64,000 nt of DNA from Straminergon stramineum (taxonomy: Eukaryota; Streptophyta; Bryopsida; Hypnales; Calliergonaceae), in contig OY987271.1 in assembly GCA_963920665.1 (NCBI GenBank), positions 15,131,350 through 15,195,349 on the forward strand, in the 5' to 3' direction. A program made the position numbers and the translations under genes. The notes beneath the pieces are model-generated. The model was not told the origin of the DNA and ran no database searches. It saw only the letters and a list, made by a program, of their open reading frames with translations. Shown one piece after another: positions 8,108 through 53,069 of the stretch. Each line of letters starts with the position of its first letter. The first letter of the stretch is position 1.

Positions 8108-11100
8108 ATGGTGGACATGGGGGTGAACAGAAGGAATGAAGTGAGTAGGTTTTTGCTGCTAGTGGCGGTGTTGGCACTAGTTGCAGAGTTTTCCCTTTTG
8201 TGCGTGGCGCAGAGTCTCAACGATGCCTCGACTTACTTGGATAATGTTGAGAGTGAAGTGATGCGAGTTGCTGCAAAAGCCAGTGAAAATTTTATCAACA
8301 CTTGTGGTATGTTTCCCGTACTTTTGAAACGTATCTTTTGTGTTGTGAATCATGTGCATCCTTGTTGGAGCAGGTTTAGATCAGTGTTTTGGGTGCGGGG
8401 ATACTGCCTACAACTAAGTATCAGTGAATGACAGTAAAATATGGAAGGGTGGCAACTTACTGGTTGTACTGGAAGTTTTTGTAGTTTACAGTATTGCCTT
8501 AAATTTAATTTTAGTGGTTTAGGTCATTGCTTATCAAGCATTTGTGTCAAGTGTTACCCCTAAGTACACAAGCTGAAAATACAAACAATTTGGAAGCTGA
8601 TAGTCAATTATAGTAGCCTCCCAACTACGTCTCCATCATTAAAAAATGTCGAAGCTACTTTCATATTTCTATTTAGACATTTATTATTTTCCTTAAAAGG
8701 TTTCTGAACGGTTATTGTTCAACTTCTATAGATATGGAAGCCACTCTTTGATCAGTCAGGAGTTAAATCATTTTCTGTTGATACATTTTGTTACCTTCAT
8801 TGAAGCTTCATGAAGATATCTAACTCCAGTAGGTATAGAAGCAGTCCTTTGCGGACTTTGGGATTAAATTATTGCGACACTCATTGCTAACCCATTTGAA
8901 ACGTTTTTAGTTTTTTTTTAACTTGCTATTGACTGGTTACGTAACAATCTACAACTAATATATGAATGTGGCAATTGCAGATTTGGTGGAATCGTGTGGA
9001 GGGGCATGCTCGCGACAATCATGTCAACCTTTGGAAGGGGACATCCAGTTGTTGACGTGCAAGAATGTTGCCCTAAATCCTACGTGCAGTGATGCAAATG
9101 GCAACATGGGATGCTCACAGCTGCGAGTCATGCTTTCTAGGAGTTTTGTCAGGTCTTGATTCCTGTTGCCAACACTTTTAACACTCTAAGTGCTTTCAGT
9201 GACTGCTATCACATCCACATTATAGGAGATGAAAATTAATCATTTAAGAAGTTCAAGGAAGGTAACAAAATATATCAAACAAAGAGACGAATTCAAGCCC
9301 TACATTTGGAATAATTGAAGTATGTTTTGAATTTTATTTTATTTTATTTTATTTTATAGATTTTAGCTTGGGCAATTAGGTGTTAACCAAGTTCACACAA
9401 CAATCCATTCTCTTGGGTTCACTAATTGAACAACACCTGATGGCTGCTAACTCTTTACATTCAATATTATTGCAATTGAGGAGGCTATTCGCATAAGTTC
9501 CTTCGGTAGTATGACTGGTTTAAGTTTTTAGTTTGATGGACTGACTTGGAGTCTTGTTGCAGGCTTCCTACGACACCTGATATTAATGTGACAAGTGCAG
9601 ACAACTACGCAATTTGTAGTCAAAGGATGCTGGATCCCCTGTTTTTGAACATTTCCAAGGTTCACAACAACGCAATCAATCTCACTTCATGGTTCTACCT
9701 TGGATCCGTGGAGGGGGTGCAACGTTCCTTTCCTGGTCGAGTAAGCTTCGAACTTGAATGTGTTCATCCCAGCATTTTTGTGTCATGTTTCCCTAAGTCT
9801 GCAGGGTTTTAGGGCTACTTCTAAAATTTTAGAGTTATTAGAGAATATCCTGTTCTCATGGACGCGACAATGAGAAGAACTCATTTTCACTTAAAATTAT
9901 GATATCATTGTCATATTGAATGCCAACTTTGTTTATATGGACACAATTTCGAGTGCCCCAATTGTGACACTCAATTGCTCAATGGTCTGAAAACTCGGAC
10001 TGGTATAGATTTAGGTTTCAATGCCCCCGCCGTGGAAAGCGTGGAAAGCGCCAATGTTATGAATTTCTGTCAATATTATGAAATTGATGCTTATCAATTC
10101 CAGTGTGATTTTAAGCAACTTCAACATGCATCATGATGCAGGATGTATCACCAACAAGTTGTACCTTTGAACCAAGGAAGCGTCCCTGGTGAGTCCACTA
10201 TACCTCTGGAACTCTTTGTAAAGAAACAATGACAATTAGTATGGCTTGGTGCCTTACTAGAAGTAGGTAGAACCACTTCTACTGGGTCAAGTCTAGAATT
10301 AGTCTGAATAATACTTGCTTAGACTTCATTGTCTTATCGTTAGTCATGCACCCCATGGGATGCCTGAAGCATGTGTGAATGAAAAAAGTCCCTGGGACTC
10401 CTCAAGTGTTCTTGTTGTTCTTCTTGTGTGGTAAACTACAGATGGTCAAAACCCAAAACCCAGTCTCATAAATCTTATGTCAGGAGTGATGTTATGTTGA
10501 ATTCTACGGTAATTTGAGTTTTAGAAATCAGAGAATCTGTAAAGTAATGTAAATATCCTTCCAGGTATATGGGTGCAACAGCTGTGCGGAAGGACCTAAT
10601 CATTCTGCTAGATGGTGGAAACTCAATGGGCGATGGATTACCTGGTGACATCTTTATTAATCCAAATGATTTCACCAAGTTCGCTGCCTCTGTCAACATG
10701 ATCAAGGAGCTTCTAGACACCCTAAACTACGGTGATCGTGTGTCCGTCGTCCTTTACTCCAGTTCCACCTCAGCCACTTTGGTGATGAATGTAAGTACAC
10801 TGCAGGGCTGATATATTTTTGCACACGGATTATTGTTTTTTCTTTCCTGTAATGTCATTTTAAGTAGAACAAAAAGTACATGCGCTTTTATGAAAGCGAC
10901 ACTGATCCAATTGCAACAAAATGAGCAGACTGCATTCATCGTAGGACACCAATCTTGGACTGTCCAAGATTTCTTGTTGTGGGAGTGCTTTGATAGTGAA
11001 AGATACTGGGCAGTTCAAGATTGGCATCTTATAATGATACATTTGCAAGATTTAGGTCGGATTGATTTAGTGTGGCTTTTGCAACCTTGCCAGTAAGAGT

Positions 11101-14100
11101 TACGAGATGATTATTAAAGGGTGAATTATTGGCTCTGGAACGAAAGAGAGGAGGTCATGAATTGACAAAATTTACATCCACAGGGAATGTGAAGTCGATT
11201 GAGTTAGTTGCTACTTAGAAAGCAAGCCAATGGTACAATGTGCTTTCAACGGGAAGGGTAGTAAACAGAGAGTGCGGACACTAACACGAGCTTGCCCACC
11301 ATTGACTTCACCCTCAATTTAATCTCCACAATCGATTGAAACATTGTTACTTCTACATTCGTAACATGATTTTCACTGGGAGTGGTGATGTGTGCAGATG
11401 ATATCAACAGGAAACTCCACCGACATACAACCTTTGAAAACGGCACTTGATGCATTATTGGTGGATACCAATCCAGGGACCTCCAATTTGCTGGCAGGGA
11501 TTCAGAAGGCCAATGCCACTTTTTTATCCCCAGCGGACCCGGCTGTCCTCAAAATTATGGTGCTGATTACAGACGGCCAGTTTGCAGACAACACTACCCT
11601 GCCTCCCTTACTCCCATTCCTCGCCAGCTTTCGCTCCCAACAGGTCAGTGAACTCCACCTTTGATTATCCTTCATTTTCCATCTTCAACCGTTTTTTTCT
11701 CACAACTATAGCTACTTCGATTGTCGCCTCTATTCTCACTTTAATCAAAAATAGAAATTTGATCAGTTTCCAATCCTATAGTTTCAATTGCCGATCGTTT
11801 GTTTATTTATGTATCCATTTTGAAAATTTATTTTCATCAGTTTCCAATAATGGTGCATTTCATTAAAATGGCGGTATTATCCTGCCATTTCTGACATATT
11901 CCATGCCATTTTAATGGAATGTTGCGCCATTTTACCGTAATACCGCCATTTTAATGAAATTCACTATAATACCAAAACCAACGGTTCTCTCTAATACAAT
12001 GTCCATTCCATTAGTAACCCATCAATGCAGATGAGATGTCTTGGTCAACAATATAGTTGAAAGAGATGTAGCTTATTGGTTTCTGTTTGCGTAAGCTTGA
12101 GAGTTCGAAGACTGTAGATTTTAACCTACCTCTAGCCATTTTCTACGAGGAACGTTTTGACTTCCTTAGTAATGTTATTTCAGTCGTTCATGTCTTAATA
12201 CATTTTCGTAAATTGATAATTTAATCATCGGTTTACTCCACACTAACCATCTATCCCAACACCAGGTCCTCACCCTGCTCTATAGTTTCGACCGGACAGA
12301 CACTGCAAAAACTTCCTTGTCCCAACTCGCGTGCACCGTGAACGGCACTTATGAGCGCATCTTAAAGACCGTGATGAACCCACTGTGGACGATGCGATCC
12401 TACTTCGGGAACATCGCGTTCTGGCGCCTGCAGGCGGTGAATTTCAAGCCGTACTGGAGCAAGCCGTACGTGGACAGCGGGAGCTTGGCGGAGGTTATTA
12501 CGGTGGCGTACCCCGTGTTCGCGCCGGACAATTACACTCTTGTTGGGGTGGTGGGCTCGGATGTGATCATGTCGGAGCTGGGATCTATTGCTAGCACTGA
12601 CTTCTCGGCGGCGCTGAGTGGAAGGGCGAACGATCAGTCCTACCCTGTCACATTTGTGCCGCTGCCCTGTAATGTAAGTGCTCAGATCAGTCTTGCCGTC
12701 CAGTTCCGCAGTCGAATTTCATCTCGGGTCTTTCCGTCTGTTTCTGCAGTCGAATTTCATCCGTGGTCTTTAATTTCCATCTGTGTCTGCTGTCGGATTC
12801 CATCTGTGGTCTTTCCATCTAGTTCTTTACTTGAATTCCTTCTCTGGTCTTTCCGTCTAGTACTGCAGTCGAATTCCGTCTCTGGTAGTTGAATTGCCAA
12901 TTCTTCTTTCATATCTTAATGCAGGTATGTGCCACAGCTGTTCAATTGCCTTGCGAAATGGTATACTGCGAAGTTGTGCATGATTTAGTCCTTAATACAT
13001 TAAAAACATTGTGACAAGTAAAAGTTACTCGATAGAAAATACGGTGTCAATTCTAGTCGCATTAACATTGGCAGGGTTTACATTAGACATTGCCTTAAAT
13101 GGTGCTATAGTTGACAAGGTTGACACAATCTTTAAGAGGCCCCCGTCTTTTACTTTTGGTTTGGGGAACTTGGATAGTCCTGAGTTTACAAAGGCTCTGA
13201 GAAAGAGGGACTGAGAGACCCTCAAGAAGAGAGATTGAGAGAGGTTTGTAGGACACTGAGAAGAGCAATGGTTTGTCTTCATTTTTTTTAATCGTGCCCT
13301 TCGAATATAACGAAGGAGGGACATTCTTGATGGAAGGTTTACTTTAGGAATTTGCCTTAAATGGCGCTACAATTGACGGTTTAACTCAACCAGATTTTCT
13401 ACATACCTCTGGGGGAGTTCTTTTCTACTAGTGAAGGTGAAGGGATTTCATCGATGACCATGCGCGATCTGAAACGTAAATCTATACCAGGTCTAGTTTC
13501 GGGAGCTTTGGGTAAACGAATGTCACAATTTATGGCGCCCAGAATTGAACGAAATTGACAGTACCTGTGGATGTTGCGCAGGTGCAATTATCAACGAACA
13601 ACACATGTCCCACCATATCAGCCCCAGTGAACCCCCTCTGCGCCGCCAACGACACCAGCAACGTTTCCTTCGCGGACCGCGTGTGCGACTGTCCTCCCCA
13701 GTGCAAAGCTCCCCAGGAGAAGCGTTCAGTCTCCTCCGCTGTGATCGGGTCAGCAGCTGGAGGAGGCGCGCTCGCCCTGCTAATTCTAGCGATTTCCCTG
13801 GTCTATTGCTGCAGGAGTCGGTACCGAACCCAGAAGATCGAAAACCAAGGTTCTGTGTATGCGCCCAGTATTATTATTAGCCCCCAAAAGGACTCCATCT
13901 CCAAGACTGCCAGCAAGTCGATCAAGGGGATGTGCTTCGGGCAGAGGTCGGAGGATTCTGAGGACGTCGCCATGCCGAACTCGACTTACACGTCCTCGTC
14001 TTCTGCGCGGTATGAGCTTCTAAGCACTCGTGTGTGTGTTTTGCCTTGGAAACCTTATTTTGTTACCGGAATTATGAAAGTAGAGCCTTTTTATGAGAAT

Positions 14101-16065
14101 TAGTAGCGCGGCGAGCCACAAGAGTGGCGAGGGATTTCATTTCCCTAACGAAGCTGCACTTTCACGTTAACGGACTACGTTGTCTGATGGTGGGATCGTG
14201 TTTAATCATCTTAATCAAGGGTCTGAAATGAAGGACACCGTAGCACTATAAAAGAAGGACAACGTTATGAGAGATAACCATGCTCTCCATTGAGGTTTTG
14301 AATACAGCAATACCTTGCACCAACATAACCGGTTGTCGACTTTTCAATGTTAACGTGGCACCATCCCATTGGCAACCTGTCACCATTGCCATTGCATGTT
14401 ACAACTCATAACCTTCTTTCCTATCCACTTGCTTCTTACACCCTTGGATCATGAAGATCAAAGGTTGTGATTAAAAAATGTACAACCGGTTATGTTCGAT
14501 AACCAATTCGCCACTAGCGCGGCTCATCGATTATCTAATACCTAGTAGCTTGCACCAAACCCTAATAGCTACTAGCCAGTGCTTGTAAGGCCTGTTAGCT
14601 TCACATTTCCGTGTATTTATTGTTAGTCACAATTTATCCTAAAGATCATGAGTAGTTTGAGCTTCGAATCTTCATATTGTTAAGATATCTTCAATTTTTG
14701 AAAACATTTAAACCCACAGTGTAATTGGACCCAACTGATTCCTCCGTTAAAAGTAATTGCACAGAATAGCTGTAGCTAGAAGTTAACAAATCTCTTATAT
14801 CCTTGCACTTGCAAGGTAATCAATGGCAAAATAGAGTTTTCAGTCAGCAAATTGCCTCTTAGTGTAGGTGCAGACAGGGTTATGTCTTGATAAGTATTAT
14901 TAACAATCTTTAAATTTAAGCAAGCAAATAAAATTGTCCAGGAATTTGTGCACTACGATTTGAAATTTCACAATTCTGGTAGTCTGACGTGATCTACATG
15001 CACAGAAGGCAAAAAAGCAACAAAGCTCCCGCTTGGCCCACGGGCAGCAAGTCCCTCAGCCGCGACGTCGTCTCTTTCACCATGCTCGAGCTCGAGTTCG
15101 CCACCCAAAACTGGTCCACCGCCTCTCTCCTCGGCAGGGGTGCATGCGGCAGTGTCTACAAAGGCACACTCCTCGGCATCCCCCGCGCCATCAAAAAGCC
15201 CCACGACGGCGTCGAAGTTGCCAACTCCACTTTCGATAAAGAGCTCGACCTCCTCTCGAGACTCAACCACAAGTGCCTGGTCCGCCTCATCGGCTACTGC
15301 GTCGACGAGCATGTCCTCGTCTTCGAGTACATGTCCAACGGCACCTTAGAAGATTGCCTCCACAAGCACCGTCTCGAGCGCTCCCTCACCTGGGAGGAGC
15401 GTCTCCGCATCGCCGCGGGTGCCGCAAAAGGCCTCGAGTATCTCCACGAGTACGCCACCACGATGATCATCCACGGCGACGTCAAACCAGCCAACATCTT
15501 GCTCGACGACAAGCTTGAGGCTCACATCTCAGACTTCGGATTATCGCTCTCCACAGCGGATGCAGACGCTTCCGTGATGTGGGCTTCTCGAATGGGTGGG
15601 ACGCCCGGGTACTTCGACCCCGAGTACGCTTCCTTGGGGAGCTTGACGCCCAAGAGTGATGTATACAGCTTTGGGATTGTGCTGCTGGAGCTTCTGAGTG
15701 GGAGGAAAGTGGTCCAGGAGAATCAGAACATTTCCACGTGGGCGGTGGAGAATTATAAGCGTCTTGGAGTCGGGGCGATGTTGGATCCGGATATGGAGAT
15801 GCCGCTGGAGTTGGAATGTTTTCACACGGTGATTGAATTGGCGTTGGAGTGTGTACACAAGGAGCATCAGTTCAGGCCGAAGATGAAAGATGTGTCGGCG
15901 GTGTTGAGCGGCGCGGCGGCAGCGTGGCAGACGTTTGAGAGGGGGGAGGATGGGAATGGGGAGTGGAGGCCAAGTCGCGGGCAGACGCGGCGGCAGTCGA
16001 GAGGGCCGGAAGAAATTGAAGAGGATGGAGAATATGAAAGCACTGTACAAGAATTGCTATTGTGA
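8108..16065 (+). CDS. Receptor-like kinase with alpha2/delta-like VWA-Cache ectodomain, 987 aa
   Basis: Nine exons: 8108-8306, 8981-9152, 9563-9740, 10142-10188, 10565-10790, 11398-11643, 12266-12673, 13582-14009, 15006-16065. All introns are GT-AG, every junction keeps phase, and the sum is 988 codons. Seen in order: signal peptide (hydrophobic 15-34); cysteine-rich VWA-N-like region ending in PRKRPWY (194-200), a hallmark of calcium-channel alpha2/delta proteins; VWA domain about 208-365 with MIDAS-like D215-x-G-x-S219, T302 and D333; Cache core about 418-460 (W-x-x-PY-x-D, then VTVAYPVF and VVGSDV); cysteine-rich stalk; transmembrane helix about 545-568; protein kinase from about 670 with P-loop GRGACGSVYKG (678-688), Lys698, Glu714, HGD (catalytic Asp773), DFG (Asp791) and DPE. 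HGD in place of HRD makes it a non-RD kinase. The family role would be ligand sensing at the plasma membrane through a dual VWA/Cache ectodomain. The ligand is unknown. The start is the first ATG giving a signal peptide. Confidence 0.9.
9331..9358. repeat. (TTTTA)n microsatellite in intron 2
   Basis: About five ATTTT/TTTTA units in a row lie within the second intron of the receptor-kinase gene. Confidence 0.7.
11852..11966. mobile_element. Short MITE in intron 6 of the receptor kinase
   Basis: The left end ATTTCATTAAAATGGCGGTA is repeated inverted at the right end (TACCGCCATTTTAATGAAAT), about 115 bases overall. The same ends occur on the 325-base element at 17155-17479, so both belong to one family. 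Here the outermost bases have diverged. It lies wholly inside the intron at 11644-12265. Confidence 0.7.
12709..12884. repeat. Minisatellite in intron 7, about 40-base unit
   Basis: Four to five diverged units of about 38-43 bases. Each contains GCAGTCGAATTTCATC-like and GTGGTCTTTCC-like blocks, starting just after the donor site at 12674. Downstream in the same intron, GCCTTAAATGGTGCTA-like sequence near 13093 recurs near 13356 as a second, dispersed direct repeat. Confidence 0.65.
14322..14496. repeat. 15-base inverted repeat in intron 8
   Basis: AACATAACCGGTTGT (14322-14336) is matched inverted by ACAACCGGTTATGTT (14482-14496). The size of about 175 bases is MITE-like, but no target duplication is clear. 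Confidence 0.4.
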
Positions 16066-17154: not shown

Positions 17155-17479
17155 GGTCAATTTCATTAAAATGGCGGTATTCAAATGTCATTTTTCAGAC
17201 CGCTCAGTCTCAACTCTAAAAGGACATCTAAGATCTTTATAGATTTTGGACATCTAGGACACTTATAGATTTCAGAAATCTAGAAGAGTTACAGATTTTA
17301 GACCTCACGGTCTGAAATATCTATGAAATTTCTAGATTTTAGACATCTAGGACAGATCTAGATTTCTAACATCTAGGACAAGTTTAGACTTCAAACCATG
17401 CCAAAGTAGTGAAATGGACCACTAATTTACTAGAATACCACCAATTTTCTGGAATATTGCCATTTTAATGAAATTGACC
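17155..17479. mobile_element. MITE, 325 bp, same family as the intron-6 element
   Basis: The ends are exact inverted copies of GGTCAATTTCATTAAAATGG. The interior is itself made of inverted GACATCTAGGAC / ATTTCTAGA-type repeats, so the whole element can fold. No coding capacity. A target duplication is not obvious. Confidence 0.75.
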
Positions 17480-23946: not shown

Positions 23947-26900
23947 ATGGGTAATTCATGTTCTGAAATTGAGTACGACGAGATTGTCGCAGTTACAAAG
24001 TTGAGGACTTGTAGAAATGAGCGCTGTGCTAATGCAGCAATCTTCATGGATGGGCGAACAGCTGATGAGTCGTCCTCAGAGTGCGGGTCCTCCAATCTTC
24101 TGAACCACGAAGAAACTATTTGCACGGGATTAATTCAACCGTTGAGTGCTGCAAATGGCTCCATTGATCAAGACTTCCTCACTGGATTTCCTTTTCCGCA
24201 TTCCAATTCTTTACAGATGATGAAGCCCCCTCTCATAGGCTTACTTAATCAGACAGCTGCAAGGTCGCCTTTGCCGATATCCTACGGCAAAGCCATGTCG
24301 CTCACTCATGCAGAGGCAGACTTCATCAAGGGAACGGGAGTGAATTTACGAAGAAGGCCGCTGAGCTCCAACTCTATATTGTGACTTGGAACATGAAAGG
24401 ACGGGTGAGACTTTTGAACTCAAATTTTGCATGCCCCATGTTGAGCTCTCCTTACTTTACAAGTACTGGATAGAAATAAATTACTCGAAATTTTCCGTGT
24501 GCTGCGATTGGAGTCGTTTTGACATCTTTATTCGTGCTGAATTCCCTGTGACAGAAACTAATTGTGATTTTAGACGCTTATTACTGCTTCCAATCACTCT
24601 CAAGTGCGGGAAGTACGTCTTATGTCACAGCTAGAAATCTGATAACTAGAGTTATGGTCATTGTCACGGCAGTTGCAGGAGACACAAAAAAAACTGTCTC
24701 TACTCCTCGACCAAGACGGAGAAAAGCACGACTTGTATGTTATAGGGCTACAGGAAGCTCCAGATTTTTCTGGTGAAGAGGCCATAAGTAAATTGTTGGG
24801 CGACATGTATCGGTACGGTTTCTATTCCCCACATGATTGCTTAGTATTTGTTACGGAGCATATAATTAGTGGGAACAACCACTCTCAAGAAGGTCGCTTC
24901 ACATTGCGTGGTAGAATTTTCAGGGGTTCCAGAACATCATGTTGATTTTCATGAAATCTACCACCACCTCTGAGCTCTTGAGGGCTTTACTCGTGAGTGA
25001 GCTGGAGCACCTTGAAAATTTGTCGGTGTAAATGTCAGGGCGATGACCAGTATGCTCTCATGGACATTTTCATTTAAATTCTTGAACAAGACAATTTTTG
25101 CATTAGTAAGATTGAAATGTGCATAAAAACAAAAGGTTTCATGAGAAATTAACCCAGGTAGGCAACTGTTGTCATAATAAAATTTATTTATGGAAATCTC
25201 AAATGCATAATAAAGTATTCTAATTGTTTACGATTATGAAATATAAGCTCTGCTGTGAAAGTTTCTGCCTTTAAAGACAAATTCAATGATATAACATTTA
25301 ATAAATATAGGAATGCATTTCATAAGTTATAACAAATAACAAGTGAGTAATAAGTCAAATCATAAATATGCTTGTCTAGAGACTAGATGTTATAGTGCTT
25401 TATATAAGATGATAGTAGGTTTATGTAAACAATTGCATAAAATTTTGAGAAGCTATGTAAAGTCTTCGATTATAATAAATTTGCTAACATAGATAGTGAT
25501 TTGTAAATTTGCTTACAAATTTTTGTAGCAAACACATACTAATCATATGATGTAGGTGGTTTAAAATGATAGTTTTAACTACCAATTAAAGGTCTATTTC
25601 TTTTCTTTAAATATGATAACTCATCTTATAAAATTTGGGTTATTATATTATGTCAACCTAACCTTTTTCTCAAAAAATTTATTAATAATTTTTTTTCACT
25701 TGTTATAATTACATAATTAGCTTGAAAATGGATTTATAATCCAAGCACCCCTACAGATTATACATATTATAGTAGAGTTGCTTACCTGGGGAAATTAATT
25801 CCGGCTATCATAAAAATATTTAGAAAACGAAAATTAGGATTGAAATGTTTGCAATTGACAATAATCTTTGATCTATTGATTTCAAAAACAATGAGTAGGC
25901 TACTGAGTGTACGCTGTTGGTGAAGTACTATTTGGTTACTAACCAACTGGGCGATTTTTGGCATGTGCAGCTGTGTTGGGCTGTCATCGATGATTTCCCT
26001 TGAGCTCTATGTATTTGCAAAAAAGTCCCTGCGATCGAATATTACTGGTAATTTAGTTTCAGTTCGTCACATTATTTACCTACATCAAAATTTGGGGATG
26101 AGAGAACTTGATCAATCAAAGTGCACTGATGACACAGTTAAATTGCATGCCGAACAGGTACTATGGTGGATAAGGTAGGGTTAGGAGGACTCGGCTATAT
26201 TAGTGGTCGTCTGAAAGGAGCAGCGACTGTTTTGTTGGAATACAACAATTTGTCTCTGCTCTTCATCACTTCTCATCTTGCTGTTAAGTATTCATGCAAC
26301 GCGACCCACTATATCCATCAGTAGATTTACAGCAGTTCAAATTTTTCGACCTCCAATTTCTAACGATGTCAGTACTAAACAAAAACTGTGCATCCTTAAC
26401 CATGAGCCCTGCAATTCCTGAACCATAAGCAACAACTTTCGAAGAAATAACAAGTTTGAAACTTTGGTCAAACTATCGTAAGTTTCAATTGAGTGCAAAG
26501 CGAAACGGCAGTCAGCATCAACATAAGAAACTCACAGCCTAAAATTCAATTGCGTGGATCCTGCCGGACCCCTTTTCCAGTGCGAAAATCGTTTAGAGGT
26601 TGATCTGCCATTCATACACGGCAGAACTTGTTGGAGGCAATTAGTGGGAAGAATGTCGGCCTGAAGAACTGCAAGGCGGTCGGGTTCAGGTGCACTGAAC
26701 CATTAGATTGGTAGCGCAATGACTCTTTTTCTCCATGTTCACTGAAAGCTTAGCGTAATTTTTTACCCAATCTGGGCTTCAGCGCTATTTTAAGTGTTGT
26801 GCATACGACTCTCCGGTGCAGCTCACGAAGGCAATATGATGGAGCGCAATTACCAGTTTGAGCGAATTTGTCAATCTGTTTTTACCAAGGCCAATGGCCT

Positions 26901-28162
26901 TAGCTCAAATGAACAGCACTTACAGTCAGCAGAGCCTCAGCATAAGGTTAGGCATGCACACAATTTCGTGGAAGGATCGGATGTTGTCGTATGGCTAGGC
27001 GATCTGAATTACCGAGTTGAAATGCCTCGGAGCTCCGTCGGATTCCTCATTAGCCAGAACTTTGAAGAGGTAGTCTCTCAAACTCTTCTGTCCTCTACTG
27101 TCATGAAGTTTAGTATGCAAACTGAGAAGATTCTCATTTTGATTAGCTTGCCTGTGAAAAACCACCAGACAATAATTTGGGAATGACTCCTTATGTTCAT
27201 AGAATCCGTATGTATGATGTAATGATCAAATTCGTTGATATGGCATATTTTAGAGTGCCAGAATTGTGAAATTCAAGCTAGTTCTCAGAGCTCTTTAAGC
27301 GGTTAGAGATTTAAGTTCTGATTGGGCCATGTGAAAGTTTACCAATTTCACTGAAATCCGCCATTTTCTCAAATATTACTCGGTTCAGATTTATCTCCGG
27401 GCCTCGAACACGACTGCAATTCTCAGCCATTCCTAAGAGTTATGAATAAAGTTTTCCTTCTGTTTAAGATTGCAATATAAATCATCCGGTGATTAATGAG
27501 TTCTTACCCGAGAACAATTTAAGTTCAAGTTACGTGTAGTGAATTGAAATAAGTGAATGGTATTGTGCAGATTTTGTTGACCAGAGACCAACTTTACAAA
27601 GCAGTACTGCGAGGTGAAGCCTTCACAGGATTCGCAGAAGGCCCTCTCCTGTTTCCGCCTACTTACATATTTTATGTAGGAACTGATAAGTACTCAAAGG
27701 TCGGCTTCTGATCCATTCCCCCTTCATTCTGTTAATTTTATCATGCTTTTTTGACAATTGTTTTCCATAACATGTATATTTTGAACTTGCAGGGCTATGA
27801 AGCCACCACAATCTCACCCGATCAATGCGACGTGCACCATTTGGAGTTTGGGCGGAATATAGTTCCGCTTGATCCTTCTCGGATTACGAGACTCAGGAGT
27901 CATGAGACTCGCTGATCATCTGTTTCGTGGATGACCTGAGTCATAAAAATACATATATTTATTGTAGTGTCTGTACTCGTTGCAGGAAAGGACACCCTCG
28001 TGGACACACAGAATCCTATACAAAGTGAAGTCAACTTGTTCGGTTGAGGCTGACTTGATGCAGTACAACTCGATCTCTGTCATGAAGACTTCCGACCACA
28101 AGCCAGTGAAAGCACACCTCACCCTGAAGAACCTGCTGCGAACAAGCAGCTGCGCTTTCTGA
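23947..28162 (+). CDS. Inositol polyphosphate 5-phosphatase (plant 5PTase, IP5P11-like)
   Basis: Hydrolyses the 5-phosphate of phosphoinositides or inositol phosphates. Exons: 23947-24404, 24673-24812, 25971-26047, 26158-26282, 26822-27069, 27571-27699, 27793 to about 27831, 27986-28162 (about 445 aa). Start MGNSC fits N-myristoylation plus palmitoylation, that is, membrane attachment. Catalytic landmarks: VTWNMKGR, YVIGLQEAP, LELYVFAKKSL, VGLGGLGYISGRLKGA, SHLA-HEGNMMERN, VVWLGDLNYR, FPPTYIF, PSWTHRILYK, SDHKPVKAH. Two joints are imperfect. The first exon changes frame between about 24250 and 24335 (a 50-base intron 24264-24313 or an indel would fix it), and exon 4 must end at 26280 rather than at the GT at 26283 to stay in phase. 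The PAW(C/T)D motif reads PSWTH, with His for the usual Asp. It may be a lightly damaged or non-canonically spliced gene. Family assignment is secure. Confidence 0.85.
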
Positions 28163-33905: not shown

Positions 33906-35542
33906 TTACAAAACAATTTGAGGCGGTTCAATCTGCCTCAAATCGGGAAAGCTCCACCTGGTCGACCAAGCGTCCTGCAGTCCACGAGCTCCCACTTCGA
34001 AATTCAACAAAACTCCGATTGCCAAACTTTCCGAAGCTCCATCATTCGACAATTCTTGAGCTTGCTCATGATCCAGAGCTATGGCGTGCACACGAAAGTT
34101 GTGTTCCGTGCCCTCGCTGTCGACAACGTAAGGTCGAAGATGGAGACCCGTGCCCACAGAGCTCGATCGCCGGATAGACGCTTTCACTCGAGAAGACTTT
34201 CCAATTCGAATTGCACGTATGAATGTCGAAGGATTCACTTGCGCTGCTTGCTCTGTGGTTACCACTTCTGTGAATTATGCACACAAGGGATTGGGAAAAT
34301 TCAGCAAAGGTTGGAGGGTTTTCTTTTAGGGTTTAGGGTTGATTGCCCACAGCTATGTCCGCACCAAGATTCCGAAGACGATGAGTTGATCTGCAGCGCA
34401 AAATCCAATTGCAGTTCATGAATCCTTCGCGATTCAAGGTGAGATTCGGTGGTACCGACTCTACTTATTTTATTTTTTTGACACAAATTGAAATATGTTC
34501 GATTGACAGAAAGAGAGACACAGTACAACCCAAACATCAGTTGCGATGAAGGGGAAAACAAAACACCCACTCCCCGAATTCGGCGAGTCAGGCTTATTCC
34601 TGACCCACTTAACCTAGAGACCAATCCTACTGCTACCTACTCAATATCACTAAGAGAAAACTTACTCTCGTATTGGGTTGCAATTGACAGGGTTTAACAA
34701 AGTTCGAATTTCTGGGAAAGGAGGGTGTTTCCTACTTTTCACGTAACAATAGGCGAGATTTCAAGAGATTGGCACTATTCCAGGAGGTTTAGAACCTCGG
34801 ATGAATACCGGTACTAGTATATAAACCTTTGAGCACTTGGATGTGACAATTTAGCTCAATGTCGAGTAGCAGTCTAAAATTTGAAATGCTAGAGATGCGT
34901 AGTACCTTGCGAAAATCCGGCCGAGGCATCAGCGGCGCCGCTACTTTCACCTCGAATCACGACCTCCACGACATCAAACTCCGCTTCTCTCCGCATTCCG
35001 CCATCACCTTCCGCATCTTGATCCTCCGTGCGCGCATCCTCCGCTTCCATTTTCTTCAGAGAATCGCGACATAGCGGGCAGGTGGAGTGCAATTTGAACC
35101 ACTCATCGATACACTCCGAGTGAAACGCGTGTGCGCACTGCGGCAGCAGTCTCAGTTTGTCGGACTCTTCAAACACTGCCAAACAAACAGCGCAATCCTC
35201 CGCGGATTTCCCCGTCTGCACAAACTCTGCGAATTTCACCAGTGGCAAGGCGCTCACCACTTCGGGATCGAGTCCAAGTTCCCGAGGCTTTGTAGAACGG
35301 TTTGTGCGATGTGGTGAATTCTCTGGGATGTCTGAGGTTTCCTCTGCACGCAAAATAAAGCGTTTGAAGATGGCCATGGCGAAGCCCATCAGGAAGAAGC
35401 AGACGATCACGGAGGACACCGCGATTGCTAATGTTGAATTGAAGATGCCCGTGGGCCGCACTGGTGGAGTGGTCGTGAATCGCATCACGTCGGGTGCCAT
35501 AGCCCACGTCTCATTCGAAGCTAATAGAAATTTCCTCCCCAT
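33906..35542 (-). CDS. ATL-family RING-H2 E3 ubiquitin ligase, 332 aa
   Basis: Two exons on the minus strand: 35542-34906 and 34267-33906. The intron is GT-AG and phase 1, and the total is 333 codons with the stop. Exon 1 encodes a transmembrane helix (about 36-58), a basic cytoplasmic stretch, the GLD motif (90-92) of ATL proteins and a RING-H2 domain: Cys117, Cys120, Cys136, His138, His141, Cys144, Cys155, Cys158, with Pro two residues before Cys136 and Trp148. It would recruit an E2 enzyme and ubiquitinate targets at a membrane. Exon 2 adds about 120 residues with a basic serine-rich patch (SIRRSSSVG) and no known domain. Many ATL genes are intronless, so the intron is a little unusual. 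Exon 2 rests on splice phase, GC content and an open frame. Exon 1 is secure. Confidence 0.85.
34325..34338. repeat. Two TTTAGGG units in the ATL intron
   Basis: Two tandem plant-telomere-type heptamers, which also match a telo-box promoter motif. Too short to be a telomere remnant. Confidence 0.5.
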
Positions 35543-37010
35543 CGTGCATAAATGGTGTGGGAAGCTTTAGTTGTAAGATGTGACCTGTTATTGGAAAATT
35601 CTCCTGAAGTCAACTGGAATCACGAAGCTGTTCTAGTCGATCTCGCTCGTAGCCTGAGTTTTTGGAGCAGGCGCATCCAGAGAGGCGAATACTCGTTTGA
35701 GGATCGGTGAAATCGGTATAAGTCTTGGGTGTCGCGAGATGGACGCATCATACCTGCTATAGTCTCTTAAGTTTTCGATTACCAGACCTTGTCCAGTGGC
35801 AATAATCTGCAATTCAGTGCAGTGACGCGGGATTGAAAATCAGGAGCTATAGTTCCTGTGTGTGCAAATGTCAAGAAATCGATCGAGAACTGAGGCTCAC
35901 TAGAGATGATTCAACTGATCGACGACAAGCTACGATTCTTCCCTTGCATAGAAACACAACCAAAACTTCACGGTCGCTTCACTGCTAACTTATGAAGAAT
36001 CGACGAGTCTCGCGAGATTCAAAGCAAACTTTCGAATTAAGTATGTATCCGAGAATGTAGGCCCCGACTTCTGTATCTCACTCAAAATTAGATTCCCCGC
36101 TTTCACGGTTGCTTCACTGCTAGCTTGAGTTCACGGTTACGAAACCCGACACTTACGAAGCTGCAAGCCACAACTAGTCTCTCTATCTTCCTAGCAAAAA
36201 ATTGAGTATGTATGGCCCCAGCTCCAAAATCTCACTCCAAAATCTGATTCTCTTTTTATCAAGAAAGAAATTAAAAACTAAAAATCTGATTCTCTTTCAC
36301 AGTTGCTGCGACCACGCAGACATTCGACTAAATAGGTGCCCAAGTGTATAAACAACCCCAGTTCCTAAATTTCGATCCAAATTTGATTCTCTTTCATGGT
36401 TGCAAGCTAATGTACGTACTCAGCAACGCACACTTGGAGTTGGAGATTGAGGAATATGAAAACCCGACTGGTTGCTGCGGGGTTATGTAGTGGCCCGTTC
36501 AGTTCAGCAGGTGCCCTCACTCAAATTGCGATGCTGGTGCTGACGATGTGCAGATCTTAAAACTTTACGAGTGCTGAGTTGTTGACTGATGAATGGATAA
36601 TGGGTTTGGCTTTTGCACGGTCAGGTTAGTATGCGCCGCGGCCAGTTGGATATGCTCATCACTGCAGCCCTGCCGGAGTGCCAAATCACCCAAAAGGGTG
36701 CCCAATGGGGGTCAAGTGGATAGAGAAATGGATATTGCTGACGATGGATGAGTACAGCACGACGGCAGTGAGGATTCCTCTGCCTCACACTGTTCATTTG
36801 TGCCGTCGCCGTCACTCCACGGCAGTGCTCGACTTGCTGCTTCGGAAGGGGCAGCGCCAGCAGGGCTGCCGCTGCTCATCTCTTCACAACATTAGGGGGC
36901 ATCAGGGTTGGGTTTGAAGAAATTCCGGGTTTTGAATTGCTTGCCGGAGAGCCACCAAGTGGACCCCCCCAACTGTAGGGTTTTCTACAAAATAGGAGTT
37001 CAAGTAGACT
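35543..37010 (-). promoter_or_regulatory. Upstream region of the ATL gene
   Basis: Contains several imperfect copies of a TTCACGGTTGCTTCACTGCT / GATTCTCTTTCAC type block between about 35960 and 36420, and a GC-rich stretch at 36590-36930 that may be a leader exon or another transcript. No protein-coding exon was recognised and no TATA box could be assigned. Confidence 0.4.
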
Positions 37011-43146: not shown

Positions 43147-44079
43147 CCACCGTTCACAGAACTAGTGAAAAATTGCTCCATTGCTACAAAAATGACATGT
43201 TCACTTAATGTACAGGGAAGAATTTTTTTGGAAAACCTAGATTTTCGTAGTTTCCCCCCTCAGACCAACAGAGTGTCGCAGAAGTTTCAATTTGTGGAAA
43301 ATTTGGTAGCATTCATTTGCTACAAATGAAATTTGTTTTTTGACTTGGGGTACCTCGAGCCTTCAATGTGTCGCAATTGTAGCTTGATTGTAGCTGTTTA
43401 GATAGCAAGGAAAAGTCAGCCTATCAAATACTTCTTGTCTCTCTTTTTTGCTTATGCTTATGATTATGGGTTTTACATTTTAGCAAGCTACTATTCACGT
43501 TTTTTTTCATGGCACACATTTAGTGTCAATTAATCCTACACTTCTTCATGCTATTGTGTTGCTCTATGAACAGTGCTGAACTTTATCTAGGACTTTGGAA
43601 GGTTGGGGTCAATTATTCAATTTTGTAATTCAGTGGCATTATAGACTTGTAGTAGAGGCTCTCATTTTGATTTTTGAGTGCATTGAATGTGGTTCATCAT
43701 TGTTATCCGCCATTTCATAAACTCAATTCCTTACAATAGCATTGTGATTTTTAAAATTTGAGAGCGATTAAATCACTTCCTACTTCCTTGATGTTGTGAA
43801 ATTTGTGAGTTTTTTTTTGTGCATTCACTACACTTGGGAATTGGCTACAATTAAATAACAAGTTGTGGGTATTTTCAAATTAGGGGGTGAATGTTGGGCA
43901 AGTCTGTCATGATTTATATCCATGCTTTCTATCTTGATTAACGCCTACAACTTTTGCATGTTGAATATTGTGACTTTGCTTGCTTGTTTGGATCTTTGAT
44001 GTACCTGTGGTTGTTGTTCTATGCTTGTGTTGGGGTGTAGTGGAGTCCAAGATTTCACAATGGCGCTATGACTATGACT

Positions 44080-44520
44080 AAGGTAGACAAGCCTATTACC
44101 TTTGTGATTTGCAATCTGGCTATGTTGGGGCCAATTGCAAGAAGAGAAAATATTTTTCATAGGTGTGTGCTTGTTATATGAGTCAAACCTAAGTGAAATT
44201 ATAATTTTCTGATCAAAATTGTAATTTTCATGAATTTCTGAAGTGGTCTGCCCTGAAATGACAAAACCGTCCGTAGACTAGAGTCATAAATGTCCTAGAA
44301 ACAACCTAAAACCGTCATTTCATGTATCTATTAGCATTTGCAAAGTGACCAATAAAGGAGTGACACGATACCTTTAATGACATTACTTTTTTGATTTTGT
44401 CAGAATCTGGAGTAGATTTGACTATTTTCTAGACAAATTTGGATGCTTAAACGAATGGAATTGGGGCCAAATAGAGGGTGACGAAATTAGGATGCAGATG
44501 GAATTGGGTAGGTCCACCTT
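44080..44520. mobile_element. AAGGT-ended element X, copy 2, intact (441 bp)
   Basis: Left end AAGGTAGACAAGCCTATTAC, right end AATTGGGTAGGTCCACCTT. It is the uninterrupted counterpart of 37011-38400 and carries the single TTAA that is the empty site of the 946-base element. It differs from that copy by scattered substitutions only. Confidence 0.85.
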
Positions 44521-44585
44521 AGCCAATAACTTCTATATGTAGACGTTCTTCTCAAGTCGAAACAGTCACGATGTGGGAAAATTTG

Positions 44586-44918
44586 CACTATAACAAAACA
44601 TGGTATTAAAAAATGCACTCAAAATTGAGTGCGGTTTTTTGGACCACGTTTTTGTGCATGCCCACTATGCGCACAACCAATGTTTTTTGCAATTTCTCAT
44701 TGCAATTTTTGGAATTTTGGGGTGTGTAATATACCATTGGAAAGGTATTGAAAATACCTTTCCAATGATATAACACATGCCCCAAAATTCCCAAAATTGT
44801 AGTGGTAAATTGCAAATGAAGCTAAGAGCCCACTATGTGCACATGCACAAAAACGTGGCAAAAAGAACCGTAGTCGATTTTGACTATGGGTTTTTTTGTA
44901 TGATGTTTTGTTATAGTG
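44586..44918. mobile_element. CACTA-like foldback MITE, 333 bp
   Basis: Perfect 16-base inverted ends CACTATAACAAAACAT (44586-44601; inverted 44903-44918), flanked by TTG on both sides. CACTA termini with 3-base duplications are typical of the CACTA/EnSpm superfamily. The interior folds over its full length, with AAAGGTATT / AATACCTTT near the centre and GTTTTTGTGCATG / CATGCACAAAAAC further out. Confidence 0.85.
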
Positions 44919-44977
44919 TTGGTGTCATGATTGATGGTGCGAGTGGTGTGGAGGTCACTATTGTGTCAGAGACATAG

Positions 44978-46290
44978 TTGTTCAACTCCATGTTGGTAGA
45001 TGTGTTGAGCGATTGTCTGTCCAAAACTATTGTAATGTCATTGAAGCCTCAGACATGGAAGAGAAAAAAGAGAACTAGTGGTGTGAACTATAGTTCTTGT
45101 CCGTCATGCAAGCGTCAAAAGACATCCCCAACAACCATCACTAGGAGTGGCAAAAGGTGTAGGCTTGCAAATACATATGGGCTAAAGGTGAATTTGATCG
45201 AAATGACAACCTCACTAGAGTTGTTTGTAAGAGTTGTTCCACGATTACTGAACGGAGAAAGGTGATGATCGCCAAGGGCGACAACCTCAAGAAACATGAA
45301 GGTAAGAGGACTTGTAAAGAAGATGGTGTCCCCTTCCGTCATTTGAAGAAGGGGGATACTTTCACAAAGACGGATTGCAAGCACGTAAGCAAGCAAGGAT
45401 TGTAGTAGAGCAAGTCCTTGTAGGTTTGGAGGGTGAGGTGAAATGCAAGGGAATATAATTCTCCACGCTTTTTCAAGTTCTTTGTCATGGCATCCAATTA
45501 TGAACAAGAACAACATTTGTTTAGGCACCTTAAGCTTAAGAATGTCCCCCAAAAGCATTGGTCTCAATCCACGGGGTAGGAAATAAGTGAACACCTCCAC
45601 AATTGTGTTTTTTCAACTCTCAAGTCTGTTGTCCAATCTGCGAAAATAATCTCCATGAGCGTAGACAAAGTCACTGCCATTGACTAAATGTCCTAGTTGG
45701 GGGTGCATGTCTATGCCATAGACTCTTAGGAAAGAATCCCACATCTCTTGCACCTCTCCTATGTCTTCGATAGTGGTACTGTGGATCACTTAACCAATGT
45801 GATTATGTACTCTTTGATGGGGGAGGGGGGTCTGAGTCATGAGGAGATAGCTTTGAAACTCGTTTACTTCAGGGTTGACGGCATCAATACATTTCGAGGA
45901 CCCCAAATGGGCGTGATAATCCAAATTCGTGAGAAATGGGCACCCTTTGTATACGGTGTTTCATGTGCTAGTCATAGGATAAACTTGGTGGTTGAAACTT
46001 TTTCTAATTATATATTGATCTTTGGATTGGAGGGGCTTTTTCAATCCGTATACTCCTACTTTTGTCGTAGCCATAAGCGCCATACAAAGCTCTAGAAGTT
46101 TGTTGATCTCATGAAAACTAAGGGAAACAAGATGCTTCAAAATATTGAGACCCATTGGATTTCAATGAGAAGTCCAACACAAAGAATAATGGGTGAGTAG
46201 AAGACATTGATTGTCAAAATGGATGTTGATATAGAAACTGCCTCTGGTTCTAAAACTAATGGTGCAACTACTACTAATTTTGATCTAAGG
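44978..46290 (+). pseudogene. hAT-family transposase, N-terminal and central part, decayed
   Basis: Fragments in several frames line up in order: a basic start (WKRKKRTSG), VVCKSCSTITERRKVMIAKGDNLKKHEGK-type zinc-binding region (split here only for description), HLKKGDTFTK, KLKNVPQKHWSQSTG, SVVQSAKIISMSVDKVTAID, VYFRVDGINTFRGPQMGVI, APFVYGVSCASHRINLVVET, FCRSHKRHTK, TKGNKMLQNIETHWISMRSP and KTLIVKMDVD. These are the landmarks of a plant hAT-like (DUF4371 / ZNF862-like) transposase. Many stops and frame changes show it is dead. The C-terminal dimerisation region is absent here; a matching one lies at 57060-57640. Confidence 0.75.
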
Positions 46291-47499
46291 GCCGATGTGG
46301 AAGTTCTTCTATTATTGGCTTATTGTGAGTGCTAAATTATCCACCCTTGGTAAATCGTGAGCACAACCAGGCTCTTGGGTTTTGATCAAATGGTTCTTAA
46401 TTTTGGATGTCTAAGCGCGGTCCATTGTGCCTTCCAAGCAATGGATTTTTCTAAGTGTCCTAAGTGTCCTACACTTGCAAGACTTGAATTTTTGACCAAT
46501 CTTTTGGGGGCTAAACTAGAGGTTCCCAAGAAAGATTTTGGAACTTGGGGGGTGCACTCCCATTTTTTTTTTATGTGCAATTAAATGAAGGGGTATTATA
46601 ATAACGTTGGTCCTAAAATTTAGAAAAGGGTTTGAAATAAAATAGCATCAGTGGAATGGAAAAAATAAATTTAGAACAAATGAAGGGTAGGAAAAAAATA
46701 CTAAAATTTAGATTTTTTTTTTCTACATTAGCATTGCCAAAAAGAAAAAGAAAAAATAGTAAATATAACAGCTAGGTAGCCTAGGCTTGTCAGAAGGATC
46801 CCAAGCGCAATTTATGATCTCCTGTACATTTCATGGATGATACATTGTAATTGTAGTTTACAAAGCTGTAGTTCCATTGGGCCCGCAATTTAGGGTTGTT
46901 AGTAGGCAGTTTTAGGCTTAGGACCTTTCCTGCTCTTGAATCTAGGGTTTGGAATGTCTGTATATTTTTGGAAACAAATCTGTCATTGTGCATCTACCGC
47001 TTGTTTGTTGTAATTCAAGGCTTTCCCTGAGTTCTTCAAACACATAACAAGGTTCAGCTGTTGCAATTTAGGCCACCTAAAATTTGTTTTGATTATTGTA
47101 TTTCTGAGGGAGAAAGAAGGTAGGATTGACATTGTTGTTTTTGAATGTGGGATGTAGCCGTTGCATAATTTGGTTTAGGGTTTGGTTAAGTTCTGAGGTT
47201 GGGGTGTAGTATGTGTGGCTGATTTGTGGGGTGTGTTGCTGATTTGTGGGGTTTCTATGATCAATTGTCTTACTATTCAGATGCCATAGGTGAATTTTTC
47301 CAAATTTGGGAATGGTCGGAGGGATTTTAGGTGTGGAGCCTAGCTCTTGTGCGAACTGGTTAGGGTTTGAGGTGGTTTTGAACTTCTCCTTTGTATGAAC
47401 TGATTAGGGTTTCAGGCACTTTAGAACTTCTCCTTTGGTTTCAATGCAATCACTCTTCCCATTTTATAATAGGGAGGATTTTGGTCTTGTAGTTGTAGT
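46291..47499. other. Between two transposase remnants, nothing recognised
   Basis: AT-rich sequence with a 75-codon plus-strand frame at 46357-46584 of unknown nature. It probably includes the 5' part of the following element. Confidence 0.4.
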
Positions 47500-50400
47500 A
47501 TGGCTCTTACTACCTCCAATAGAATCAAGTTGTGGACATTAGAGGAAGAGGGCATAGATCCAGAGTACTTTGGCAAAGTCGACATTGGAGTTGCTCTAAC
47601 GTTGGAGGCACTTCGGATTACACTGGAAAGCAATGACATTTTAGAGTGGTCCTTTGATTTTTGGGATGCTGAAGATAAGTGGTGCGTTAGAAAGAAGTTG
47701 GAGCGGCTGAACAACATCTACCCAAAGATTCATGCCATTCGTCTCGCTGAAGGGGACAATGATTCAAATAAGTGACGTCGACTTCAAGATGGATCGTGCA
47801 CGCCTAGTTGCCGACGTTCGTCGAGGTTGTTCCCACTATGGAAGACATTGTCCAATTTGAAGTTGAAACAGAGGAGACTCTAGTTCCAGTCATTGGTTCA
47901 TCAAGGGTGAGCGGTAGTGGAGATTCAAGCGATTTAGACGACATCCCTTTTAAATCAATTCTCCTTCCCAACAATGTTATGGATCAGTATTTGGAGCAGG
48001 CAAGGAAACTTAGAGCCAAGCTTCAAAAGGTTGCCATGTCCAACCACGACTAGTGGTTGAAGACATTCGACCTCAATGGGAATGGTGTTGTGAAACTTTG
48101 GTGTGGGGAATGCAAGAAAGATTGCAGAGGTGGTAGCAAGGATCACACAAAGGCCCAAATTGGCAACCTGTATAAGAATTTCCGGAGATCGTACATTTTT
48201 TGTGTAGCCCATGTCAAGAATTTTTGTGTAGCAAAGAATGTGGACTTCGACAACCATCCGCAGTCATAGTTGAAGAATGGATGGTCAATTACACTAACTC
48301 CCAATGATCACAAATAGATGATTGCCGAGGGAGTGGTCATTGTGCAGTTAGTGAATTCTACGCTTCCAAATGGACATAAACAATTCACAGTGCTCGGGAA
48401 TTTAGAAGCACATGACACTAGATGTTATTGGTTTAAAGTGAAGTGCCAATATTGTAGGGATTTGATGGTCCTCTACCCATTGAAGAAGAACCTAGAAGTG
48501 AACCTCACAAATCATTTAAATGGTCCAAAACATAAGAAGGATGTTGAGGATGCAGAGAAGCTTTAGAAGGAGCCAGCAAGAACAGGGCGACCAAGGCGCC
48601 CAAGTAGGTCCAACACAAGGAGTTTTAACTTCAATCAAGGCGACCTACACACTTGATTGAGGCGAGGTACATCAAGCAGTAGTGAAGGTATATCTCAACC
48701 CTTGGATAAAGACCTTGTTGCTTGTTTGATGTGCTTTGGATTTCGTGGTCCATTTGTTGAATATGGGGGCAATTCTTATGTGGTTACTGAGTTAATGAAC
48801 GATCTACATTCCGGTGTTGAATGGTACCTAGAACCACATTTGTCTGCTACAATTCAAGTTAAAAATGATCTTATTCAAGTGAGTGGTACATTTCGGCATA
48901 GAAAGTGTGGTCGGGTGTCCCTATCTCTAGAGTCGTTCCCAAATCTGATTTGCTCTATGTGTGCACAAATACCTTGTCAAAATGATTTTAGAATGAGAAT
49001 CAGGAGAGAGGACCAAGCATTGGTTAAGAAGGGTCATAGAAGCACCACTATAGGGATCTGTATAGGCTATCTATCTATACATGAAGTGTCCAAACATACT
49101 AGAGAATTGTCTAGGAAGTATTGGCTACAAAAGTTACTCTACTGGCATGCTAGAACGAGAATTGTGCAACTAAAAGTCAAAAGACCAAGTATGCGTGAGA
49201 GTGCTATGAATGCTTCATCAGATAATAATCTAATGAGATTCTGTATCAATATCATAAGTGCCCATAGGATAGGAGCCTTCAGAGGCAAACCTGGATTGTG
49301 GGACTTCATGAAGGATGTTGTAGCCAACTTGAATAGGGATGATCGTGGGAATTGTTTTAGTGAAAATACAAAATTTTTTTCCTCAAGCTATGAGGATCTA
49401 TGGGGGTCGCCATTTATATGATTTATTCGCACTTAATTTTGTAGGACCTAGTTACGATACTATTCGTAGGGAGTGTAGAAAAGGGGTTTAATTCATACCG
49501 GGGGAACATGCTGAAATTTTTCAGTCTATCGCCAATATTTATGTTGATGCTAAGGCTACGCATGGGATCATTGGCCTAGTCCCAGTTACACTTGCTGAAG
49601 ATGAGACGAAGGTGAGGGGTCGAGTTTCATGGGAGGCTAGGTGTGATACTATGGTAGGGTTCTATGGCCCAAAAGTTGATCACATGTGTATATCGCATTA
49701 CAAGCCCATTGTGGGAGTTGGTGAAGTAGGATACAACAAGATGGTAGAGTCTTTTAGGTTTGATAGGGTGGGTGGATTTGCAAGAGTAATTGTTGTGAAC
49801 CCATTACATGAGAAATTGCCTCGATTAGTGCTAGTGGCTTGTTGTACGTGCGGTTGTTTTGATTCAAATTGGGTTAGGCAACAGTGGAATAGGATTGATG
49901 AGTTGTGGATGAGGCATTGCTATTCTACTGTGGGTCCTATCATAGGACATGCTAGTGATGGGGACTCGCGTAGAAGGCACTTAATGCTCCAAGATTTTAG
50001 AAGTTTACAGGGGCCTAGGTTAACGGTTGATTGGGAGGGTTGGGTCTTCACTTCATCTTTGAATGTGGATGGTGAAGCAACTAGTTTGTATGACCAAAAC
50101 TATATACACAATGGTAAAAGATTACTAAACCCTATTGATAGCAACGTCTGTACTTTGAGATTAGGTGGTGATCTAGCCCTTCACCAATATATATGTCAAG
50201 TATTTAACCGCTTCACAGTTGATCAACACAGGTTACTACAAGAGGATTATGATAGGAAGGATCGGTAGAATTGGACTAGTGCACAGAGGTTGTGTTCACA
50301 GAAAGTTAGAGATTGCCTATGGTTTCTTCGTTTGTCTATTGATGTGCATTGTGAATGCATTGTGGGAATTGAGATGTACTTTGAAATGTGTGTTGATTAC

Positions 50401-51991: not shown

Positions 51992-52809
51992 TTGTTCTTT
52001 TAATCTTTTCATGAATTCTTTTCATTCTATTTGCTTAATTTTATAACTTTTGCAAATCAATTACAAACAATGATAAACAATAATAATAACTTAATACACT
52101 ATTAGTACTTGTTAGTATCACTCACACTCTAGGGACCCTAGCCCAACTGTTATATTTGTAACACATTGTCAAATTGTCATTCTTCTCCTAAACCCTAATT
52201 AATTTGATGGGAGATGGGTGATGATGTGGTCCCTAAGGATACTTTTAGGATGTGATATATTGTGTATAGGTTTTGGGGGTCTAGTCAAGAATCTGCAGAT
52301 CTTGGCAAAGGGATATTTCGAAGCTGGGTGATCATTACTTGAGCGTGCAAAGAGTTTGAATTGGCCCCTAAAAACTTGATTTTGGCGGATGACAATGAGT
52401 TGTGATTCTGTCATCAAGCAGCAAAGCAATTTGCACATGGTAAGACCTCATGCTACCATTGTTGTTTTCTTCTAAGCCTGAAACCTATTTTGTAAGCACC
52501 CATTTCTAGATTATCTTCTTCTTTGTTGCAGATTTAGTTGAGGGTGCTTGATTTCCTCTTTAGCAGTATCGATTTTGAGTCTCAAATGCTTGAGAGAAGG
52601 GCAAGATATTCTAGAATGCATGTACAATTTTCATAGTTGCGCCTTGCTTTTGGTGGGGTTTTCAAATCATACTTTTGCTCGTTGCCGTGGTAGTTTGCAA
52701 TCGCTGGGAGTGTTGGGTTGGGACTTCGGTTAGTATTTTTGGAGGGTTTTGGAGATGGCCTTAACAACAGAAGTGAATGTTATTGTCAATGATGTCCTCT
52801 TTAGCTACA
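51992..52809. other. Flank of the DDE-type element, nothing recognised
   Basis: AT-rich; short open frames on both strands without recognisable domains. It may contain the 3' terminus of the element, but inverted ends could not be placed. Confidence 0.4.
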
Positions 52810-52813
52810 TCCT

Positions 52814-53069
52814 TAAGGCCATATTCATTATATTGAGACTTTTCGTAAATTTTGAGATAGAATGCTAATTATTGAAAAATTCATTTAAAAAAATAGAAAT
52901 TGAAATCAGAAATAAATAATGTTCAAATAGTGATCCTATAATAAAATTCTAAAAGTTGGTGTTGTTACCTATTTATAAAAAAATATTAGTAAAGAGATAA
53001 AGCGATTTATCTTCGAGTCAAGGATAAAAATGAGATTGCGAAAAGTCTCAATATAACGAATATGGCCTT
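52814..53069. mobile_element. MITE with 4-base target duplication, copy 2 (256 bp)
   Basis: Inverted ends start AAGGCCATATTCATTATATT. CCTT at 52810-52813 repeats at 53070-53073. It aligns with the reverse complement of copy 1 at 39303-39556. Confidence 0.85.

Follow-up and report, generated by a model that had tools for sequence, protein, structure and literature searches.

The stretch of DNA analysed here, called the window throughout, covers 64,000 nucleotides of the moss Straminergon stramineum (assembly GCA_963920665.1, contig OY987271.1, positions 15,131,350 to 15,195,349 of the forward strand). It contains a gene predicted to encode a receptor kinase whose extracellular part is related to the alpha2-delta subunits of animal calcium channels, to which gabapentin and amino acids bind. 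An earlier note on this DNA had read a secreted VWA/Cache ectodomain, one transmembrane (TM) helix and a kinase of the receptor-like kinase (RLK)/Pelle type in a single frame, and this layout was borne out by Pfam profiles and hydropathy. The features of the gene are given below.

8108..16065, + strand: whole coding region from start to stop codon, nine exons, 987 residues (splice sites, phase, translation, homologous single proteins)
8108-8306, 8981-9152, 9563-9740, 10142-10188, 10565-10790, 11398-11643, 12266-12673, 13582-14009, 15006-16065, + strand: exons 1 to 9
8144..8209, + strand: signal peptide, about residues 13-34 (hydropathy peak at 15-33; cleavage site not predicted)
9684..10586, + strand: membrane-distal Cache half, part 1, residues 165-206, with F192, R197, W199 and Y200; interrupted by introns 3 and 4, the latter dividing the W199 codon
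10593..12343, + strand: VWA domain, residues 209-382 (Pfam VWA, 1.8e-10), inserted in the Cache domain; interrupted by introns 5 and 6
12410..12610, + strand: Cache half, part 2, residues 405-471, with Y424, D426, T435 and D455
12668..13704, + strand: Cys-rich stalk, residues 491-533 (Cys positions, conservation); interrupted by intron 7
13738..13794, + strand: TM helix, residues 545-563 (hydropathy peak)
15118..15894, + strand: RLK/Pelle kinase domain, residues 673-931, wholly in exon 9 (Pfam, matches to solved kinases)
15472..15480, + strand: catalytic loop H791-G792-D793, HGD replacing HRD (non-RD)

The gene structure proposed in the earlier note was found in the sequence exactly as described: all eight introns are of the GT-AG type and keep the phase, leaving an open frame of 987 codons followed by a stop. 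At the junction preceding the kinase (14009/15006), restoration of an Arg codon from CG and A was confirmed. The longest intron of the gene (996 bases) lies directly before the kinase exon. When the window protein was compared with P0001, one of the relatives described below, 16-residue segments at the exon junctions were free of gaps in six of eight cases; at the kinase junction 14 of the 16 residues aligned and 8 were identical, with a gap. A tblastn search of the window with P0001 matched exons 1-3 and 5-9 in order, leaving exon 4 (47 bases) unmatched, and detected no second copy (paralogue) of the gene within the 64 kb. As a separate observation, two short elements resembling miniature inverted-repeat transposable elements, at 11857-11960 (in intron 6) and 17160-17474, have a 22-base terminal inverted repeat in common, which is exact in the former and carries two mismatches in one arm in the latter; the repeat was matched four times in the window, with none expected from 100 shuffles.

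Pfam profiles recognized a protein kinase (Pkinase, residues 673-931, 1.6e-38) and the VWA domain in the window protein. The Cache-type sensor family MCP-like_PDC_1 was matched at residues 405-461 (2.3e-5) with 25.2 bits, just below the cut-off of 27, which the open frame of exon 7 by itself exceeded (28.2 bits). VWA_N, also expected by the earlier note, gave no Pfam match in the window protein even at E values up to 1; among 15 relatives, 8 gave a weak match (best E value 3.2e-4; P0008 reached 16.8 bits, the cut-off being 34.7), and VWA_N was dropped as a firm domain call. Signal peptide, extracellular part, single TM helix and cytoplasmic kinase follow one another as in plant RLK/Pelle kinases. 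The window protein differs from these by its HGD loop and by an ectodomain outside the main texts of two RLK surveys, where neither "VWA" nor "Cache" occurs.

The solved kinases nearest to the window protein were FERONIA (190 bits) and SYMRK (185 bits), followed by Pto-type kinases, BAK1 and IRAK4. By these matches the kinase is of the RLK/Pelle type, its subfamily having been compared with solved kinases only; a possible likeness to CRINKLY4 kinases is not claimed. The predicted catalytic residues are present (Lys, Glu, the Asp of HGD and the Asp of DFG), and the Arg of HRD is replaced by Gly in the window protein and in all nine relatives that cover the catalytic loop. Among plants, many non-RD kinases act as immune receptors, and FERONIA has been linked to the sensing of walls and peptides.

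To look for relatives, protein searches were performed, three in all, each scoring only about 8,000 candidates that shared most words with the query; one of them did not list P0010 or P0011, both of which were found by another, and searches of this depth do not demonstrate absence from liverworts, hornworts, ferns, seed plants or algae. The search with residues 36-540 scored 7,988 candidates and yielded 12 proteins at E ≤ 1e-3. Ten of these are moss-like and include two proteins of Ceratodon purpureus, one of Sphagnum balticum and one of Physcomitrium patens; the other two are a kinase-less Selaginella protein and dolphin alpha2-delta-4. According to precomputed Pfam matches, the kinase is part of the same protein in nine of the ten moss-like relatives, P0008 being the exception. 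Not all entries are full-length: N-terminal parts are missing from P0002 and P0010, and the kinase end from P0003 and P0009. In P0001, P0003, P0005, P0007 and P0010 the frame runs unbroken for 732-1015 residues, the longest contigs of their clusters measuring 3.2-4.8 kb (4,839 bases for P0001, of 1015 residues), which suggests that they derive from spliced transcripts. The VWA/Cache-kinase fusion thus appears to be a real architecture, in public entries whose names include "hypothetical protein" and "protein kinase domain-containing".

The fusion was recovered in mosses; Selaginella has the ectodomain without the kinase. The Selaginella proteins P0011 and P0013-P0015 share the ectodomain of the window protein but end in a short tail where the kinase would be. 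A TM segment is visible by eye in P0011, P0013 and P0015, P0014 having no obvious one, and P0015 carries the NCBI name alpha-2/delta-4-like. Two further proteins, P0018 and P0019, are single-pass proteins with a VWA inserted in a Cache domain, a DxSxS metal motif and the amino-acid motif discussed below; P0019 adds a C-type lectin domain. This type of sensor may occur widely in eukaryotes other than animals and plants. The description of the ectodomain as animal alpha2/delta-like was correct as to homology but too narrow as to "animal", since it also occurs, without a kinase, in Selaginella, P0018 and P0019. In bacterial genomes a single VWA pattern located at least five loci, which matched in the VWA part only and are uninformative on the origin of the architecture; 24 stretches of viral contigs matched a pattern, with no relative among them.

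When the window sequence alone was compared with solved structures, the best match was PctA, an amino-acid receptor of bacteria (E=2.6e-5), over two stretches, residues 165-206 and 421-471, that flank the VWA domain; alpha2-delta-1 was matched over residues 166-442 (E=9.2e-4). A profile built from four plant sequences aligned with alpha2-delta-1 at E=8.8e-24, collinearly over about 340 residues (profile positions 112-453), and a pairwise hhalign comparison with alpha2-delta-4 gave a probability of 99.4%. These alignments make the ectodomain a homologue of alpha2-delta over the N-terminal half of the latter. Since the PctA match flanks the VWA and that to alpha2-delta is collinear, the VWA sits within the Cache domain. 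The resemblance to the alpha2/delta arrangement put forward in the earlier note was therefore retained, with the correction that the Cache does not simply follow the VWA but is split by it into residues 165-206 and about 405-471. In alpha2-delta, the VWA insertion is reported to split the amino-acid motif likewise (PMC9901441), and the motif of the window protein lies in the same two pieces.

The likeness to alpha2-delta has a clear end. Homology to alpha2-delta-1 stops at position 453 of the 591-position profile, at the end of the membrane-distal Cache half; the window protein shows no evident membrane-proximal half, second dCache, delta part or two-module dCache. Only about 90 residues, rich in Cys, separate D455 from the TM helix. 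Unlike alpha2-delta, the window protein has no evident glycosylphosphatidylinositol signal and carries a kinase. Cachd1 is a transmembrane, alpha2-delta-like protein, but has several Cache domains and no kinase, and is likened to the window protein here by its published description.

The VWA domain had been expected to bind protein ligands through a metal site, an expectation that the sequence does not support. The metal motif of the window protein, D215-G-G217-N-S219 (DGGNS), is degraded from DxSxS, and D-x-G is found in all ten moss-like relatives as well, the final Ser also being missing in P0003 and P0008. In contrast, DxSxS is kept in the four fuller Selaginella proteins, in P0019, in alpha2-delta-4 and, by eye, in P0018. 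Two other Selaginella entries are unusual, the Asp being replaced by Glu in P0016 and the motif finding no match in P0017. Metal-dependent protein binding is thus unsupported for the window protein. The VWA metal site of Cachd1 is also reported to be disrupted (PMC6231325).

The Cache part retains a putative ligand pocket. In PctA numbering, the amino-acid motif of bacterial dCache_1AA receptors is Y121 R126 W128 Y129 Y144 D173, of which Y121, R126 and W128 touch the carboxyl group of the ligand and Y144 and D173 its amino group (PMC9796306). The counterparts in the window protein are F192, R197, W199, Y200, Y424 and D455, identical at five of six positions. Compared with these bacterial receptors, the window protein thus has R, W, Y, Y and D at matching places; it differs by its VWA insert, by Phe for Y121, by the proximal half, which they possess, and by an output that is a eukaryotic-type kinase. 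Conservation was assessed in an alignment of 15 relatives (nine moss-like, four from Selaginella, P0018 and P0019; the window protein, P0010, P0012, P0016 and P0017 are not among its rows). R126, W128, Y144 and D173 are invariant in all 15; at the first motif position 11 of them have F and the other 4 have Y, and at the Y129 position 10 have Y and 5 have F. Invariant columns number 32 of 448 and include four of the six motif positions (hypergeometric P=2.9e-4, columns treated as independent). Binding of mirogabalin depends on 12 residues of alpha2-delta-1 (PMC11308618), seven of which are identical in the window protein (W205, R241, W243, Y450, D452, T461 and D491). Y236 is replaced by Phe. 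On the side-chain side of the pocket, V207 becomes Tyr, Y217 becomes Ser and L454 becomes Gly, and W223 falls in an unaligned stretch. The head-group side being kept and the side-chain side changed, the same class of ligand with another specificity is suggested.

Taken together, these results point to a single-pass moss receptor kinase whose ectodomain would fold like alpha2-delta in its N-terminal half, with a membrane-distal Cache half carrying an inserted VWA, then a Cys-rich stalk. The Cache pocket would most likely bind an extracellular free amino acid or a related zwitterion such as gamma-aminobutyric acid (GABA), the carboxyl group being held by F192, R197 and W199 and the amino group by Y424 and D455, with D426. 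The VWA, lacking a canonical metal site, would probably act as a scaffold or as a surface for partners, and binding would be relayed through the stalk and the TM helix to the non-RD RLK/Pelle kinase. A sensor role is plausible from the sequence, and we put the probability that this receptor kinase senses a free amino acid or related zwitterion at about 0.55. The sequences themselves show the gene model, the presence of the fusion in several mosses, the homology and the conserved pocket residues; ligand class, signal transmission and biological role are what we infer. A more specific proposal, offered tentatively and with rather less conviction, is that in a class of moss receptor kinases the pocket which accommodates gabapentin in human alpha2-delta serves for the direct sensing of amino acids or GABA outside the cell, and that gabapentinoids might be able to enter it.

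Several observations weigh against amino-acid sensing. Y121 is replaced by Phe, the side-chain lining of the pocket is altered, and no membrane-proximal Cache half like that of the bacterial receptors is evident. When given alone at 1 mM, Trp or Phe is reported to have left the surface expression of alpha2-delta-1 in cells unaltered (PMC9901441), so that conservation of the pocket is no proof of signalling. For a bacterial receptor close to the motif, in which Asn replaces D173, no indication of binding was obtained with the three amino acids tried (PMC9796306). The main rival is an adhesion or scaffold role, in which the pocket would be a structural relic and the surface of the VWA or stalk would bind a protein or cell-wall partner, the kinase reporting the contact. 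VWA domains typically bind proteins, and the nearest solved kinase is the wall- and peptide-linked FERONIA. Moreover Cachd1, the closest TM-bearing animal relative, acts through protein partners with its metal site disrupted (PMC6231325) and has a role in Wnt signalling (PMC12303104). However, a relic pocket beside a working VWA predicts the opposite of what was found, namely four head-group residues invariant in 15 relatives and a VWA metal site degraded in the window protein and all ten moss-like ones, and we regard this explanation as unlikely.

The pocket could also serve another class of small molecule, an amine, a purine or an organic acid. Cache half-domains have often switched ligand, and the amino-acid Cache has relatives that sense amines and purines, the amine sensor being derived from it (PMC10104139, PMC11245519); we consider this improbable, more so than the relic pocket. 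Finally, a kinase-less VWA/Cache membrane protein might have been wrongly joined to a neighbouring cytoplasmic kinase gene, as the kinase-less Selaginella relatives and the long intron before the kinase exon could suggest. Against such a mis-joining stand the nine of ten moss-like relatives that are single kinase proteins, four of the ten being from identified mosses, as well as the long unbroken frames and the phase and homology that run on across the kinase junction; it was rejected on these grounds as scarcely credible.

In a tree of 16 ectodomain sequences (P0010, P0014, P0016 and P0017 excluded), the nine kinase-bearing rows and P0008 fell on one side of a branch (98/97). A first moss group comprises the window protein, P0001, P0002 and P0003 (95/94), the window protein being placed with P0001 and the Ceratodon protein P0002 (99/97), as suits a moss sequence; a second comprises the Sphagnum and Physcomitrium proteins, P0006 of Ceratodon and others (87/91). 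Both moss groups were recovered in a kinase tree of eight rows, where P0001 pairs with P0002 (89/86), and not with the window protein as in the ectodomain tree (83/76). Most simply, these trees would mean that the fusion of ectodomain and kinase arose once, before the two moss groups parted. The deeper branching order is unsure because alpha2-delta-4, P0018 and P0019 are on long branches.

Among the top-ranked matches in the open-access literature, none was seen to describe a Cache or alpha2-delta-like ectodomain on a plant receptor kinase, in agreement with the earlier note, which knew of no such class. In the library searched, the one paper to mention both Cache domains and Physcomitrium deals with a bacterial receptor; a 2022 survey of the motif may list plant members. 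The architecture is well supported and, within the literature searched, undescribed. It provides a concrete candidate for a cell-surface amino-acid receptor in a group to which Physcomitrium patens, a moss open to gene knock-out, belongs, and suggests that the VWA-in-Cache sensor is not confined to animals and became fused to a plant kinase before the two moss clades split.

Other features were noticed elsewhere in the window.

26794-27186, + strand: open frame with an Exo_endo_phos2 match (3.2e-8), probably a single exon from a gene resembling those of inositol-phosphate phosphatases
34892-35566, - strand: 225-residue open frame of the RING-H2 type (zf-RING_2, 2.1e-14), resembling an ATL-type ubiquitin ligase gene
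62686-63102, + strand: open frame with an alpha/beta hydrolase match (5.4e-10)
44001-54000: region where GC skew is strong (0.15-0.22); two frames in it, 254 and 258 residues long, matched no Pfam family; perhaps a decayed mobile element

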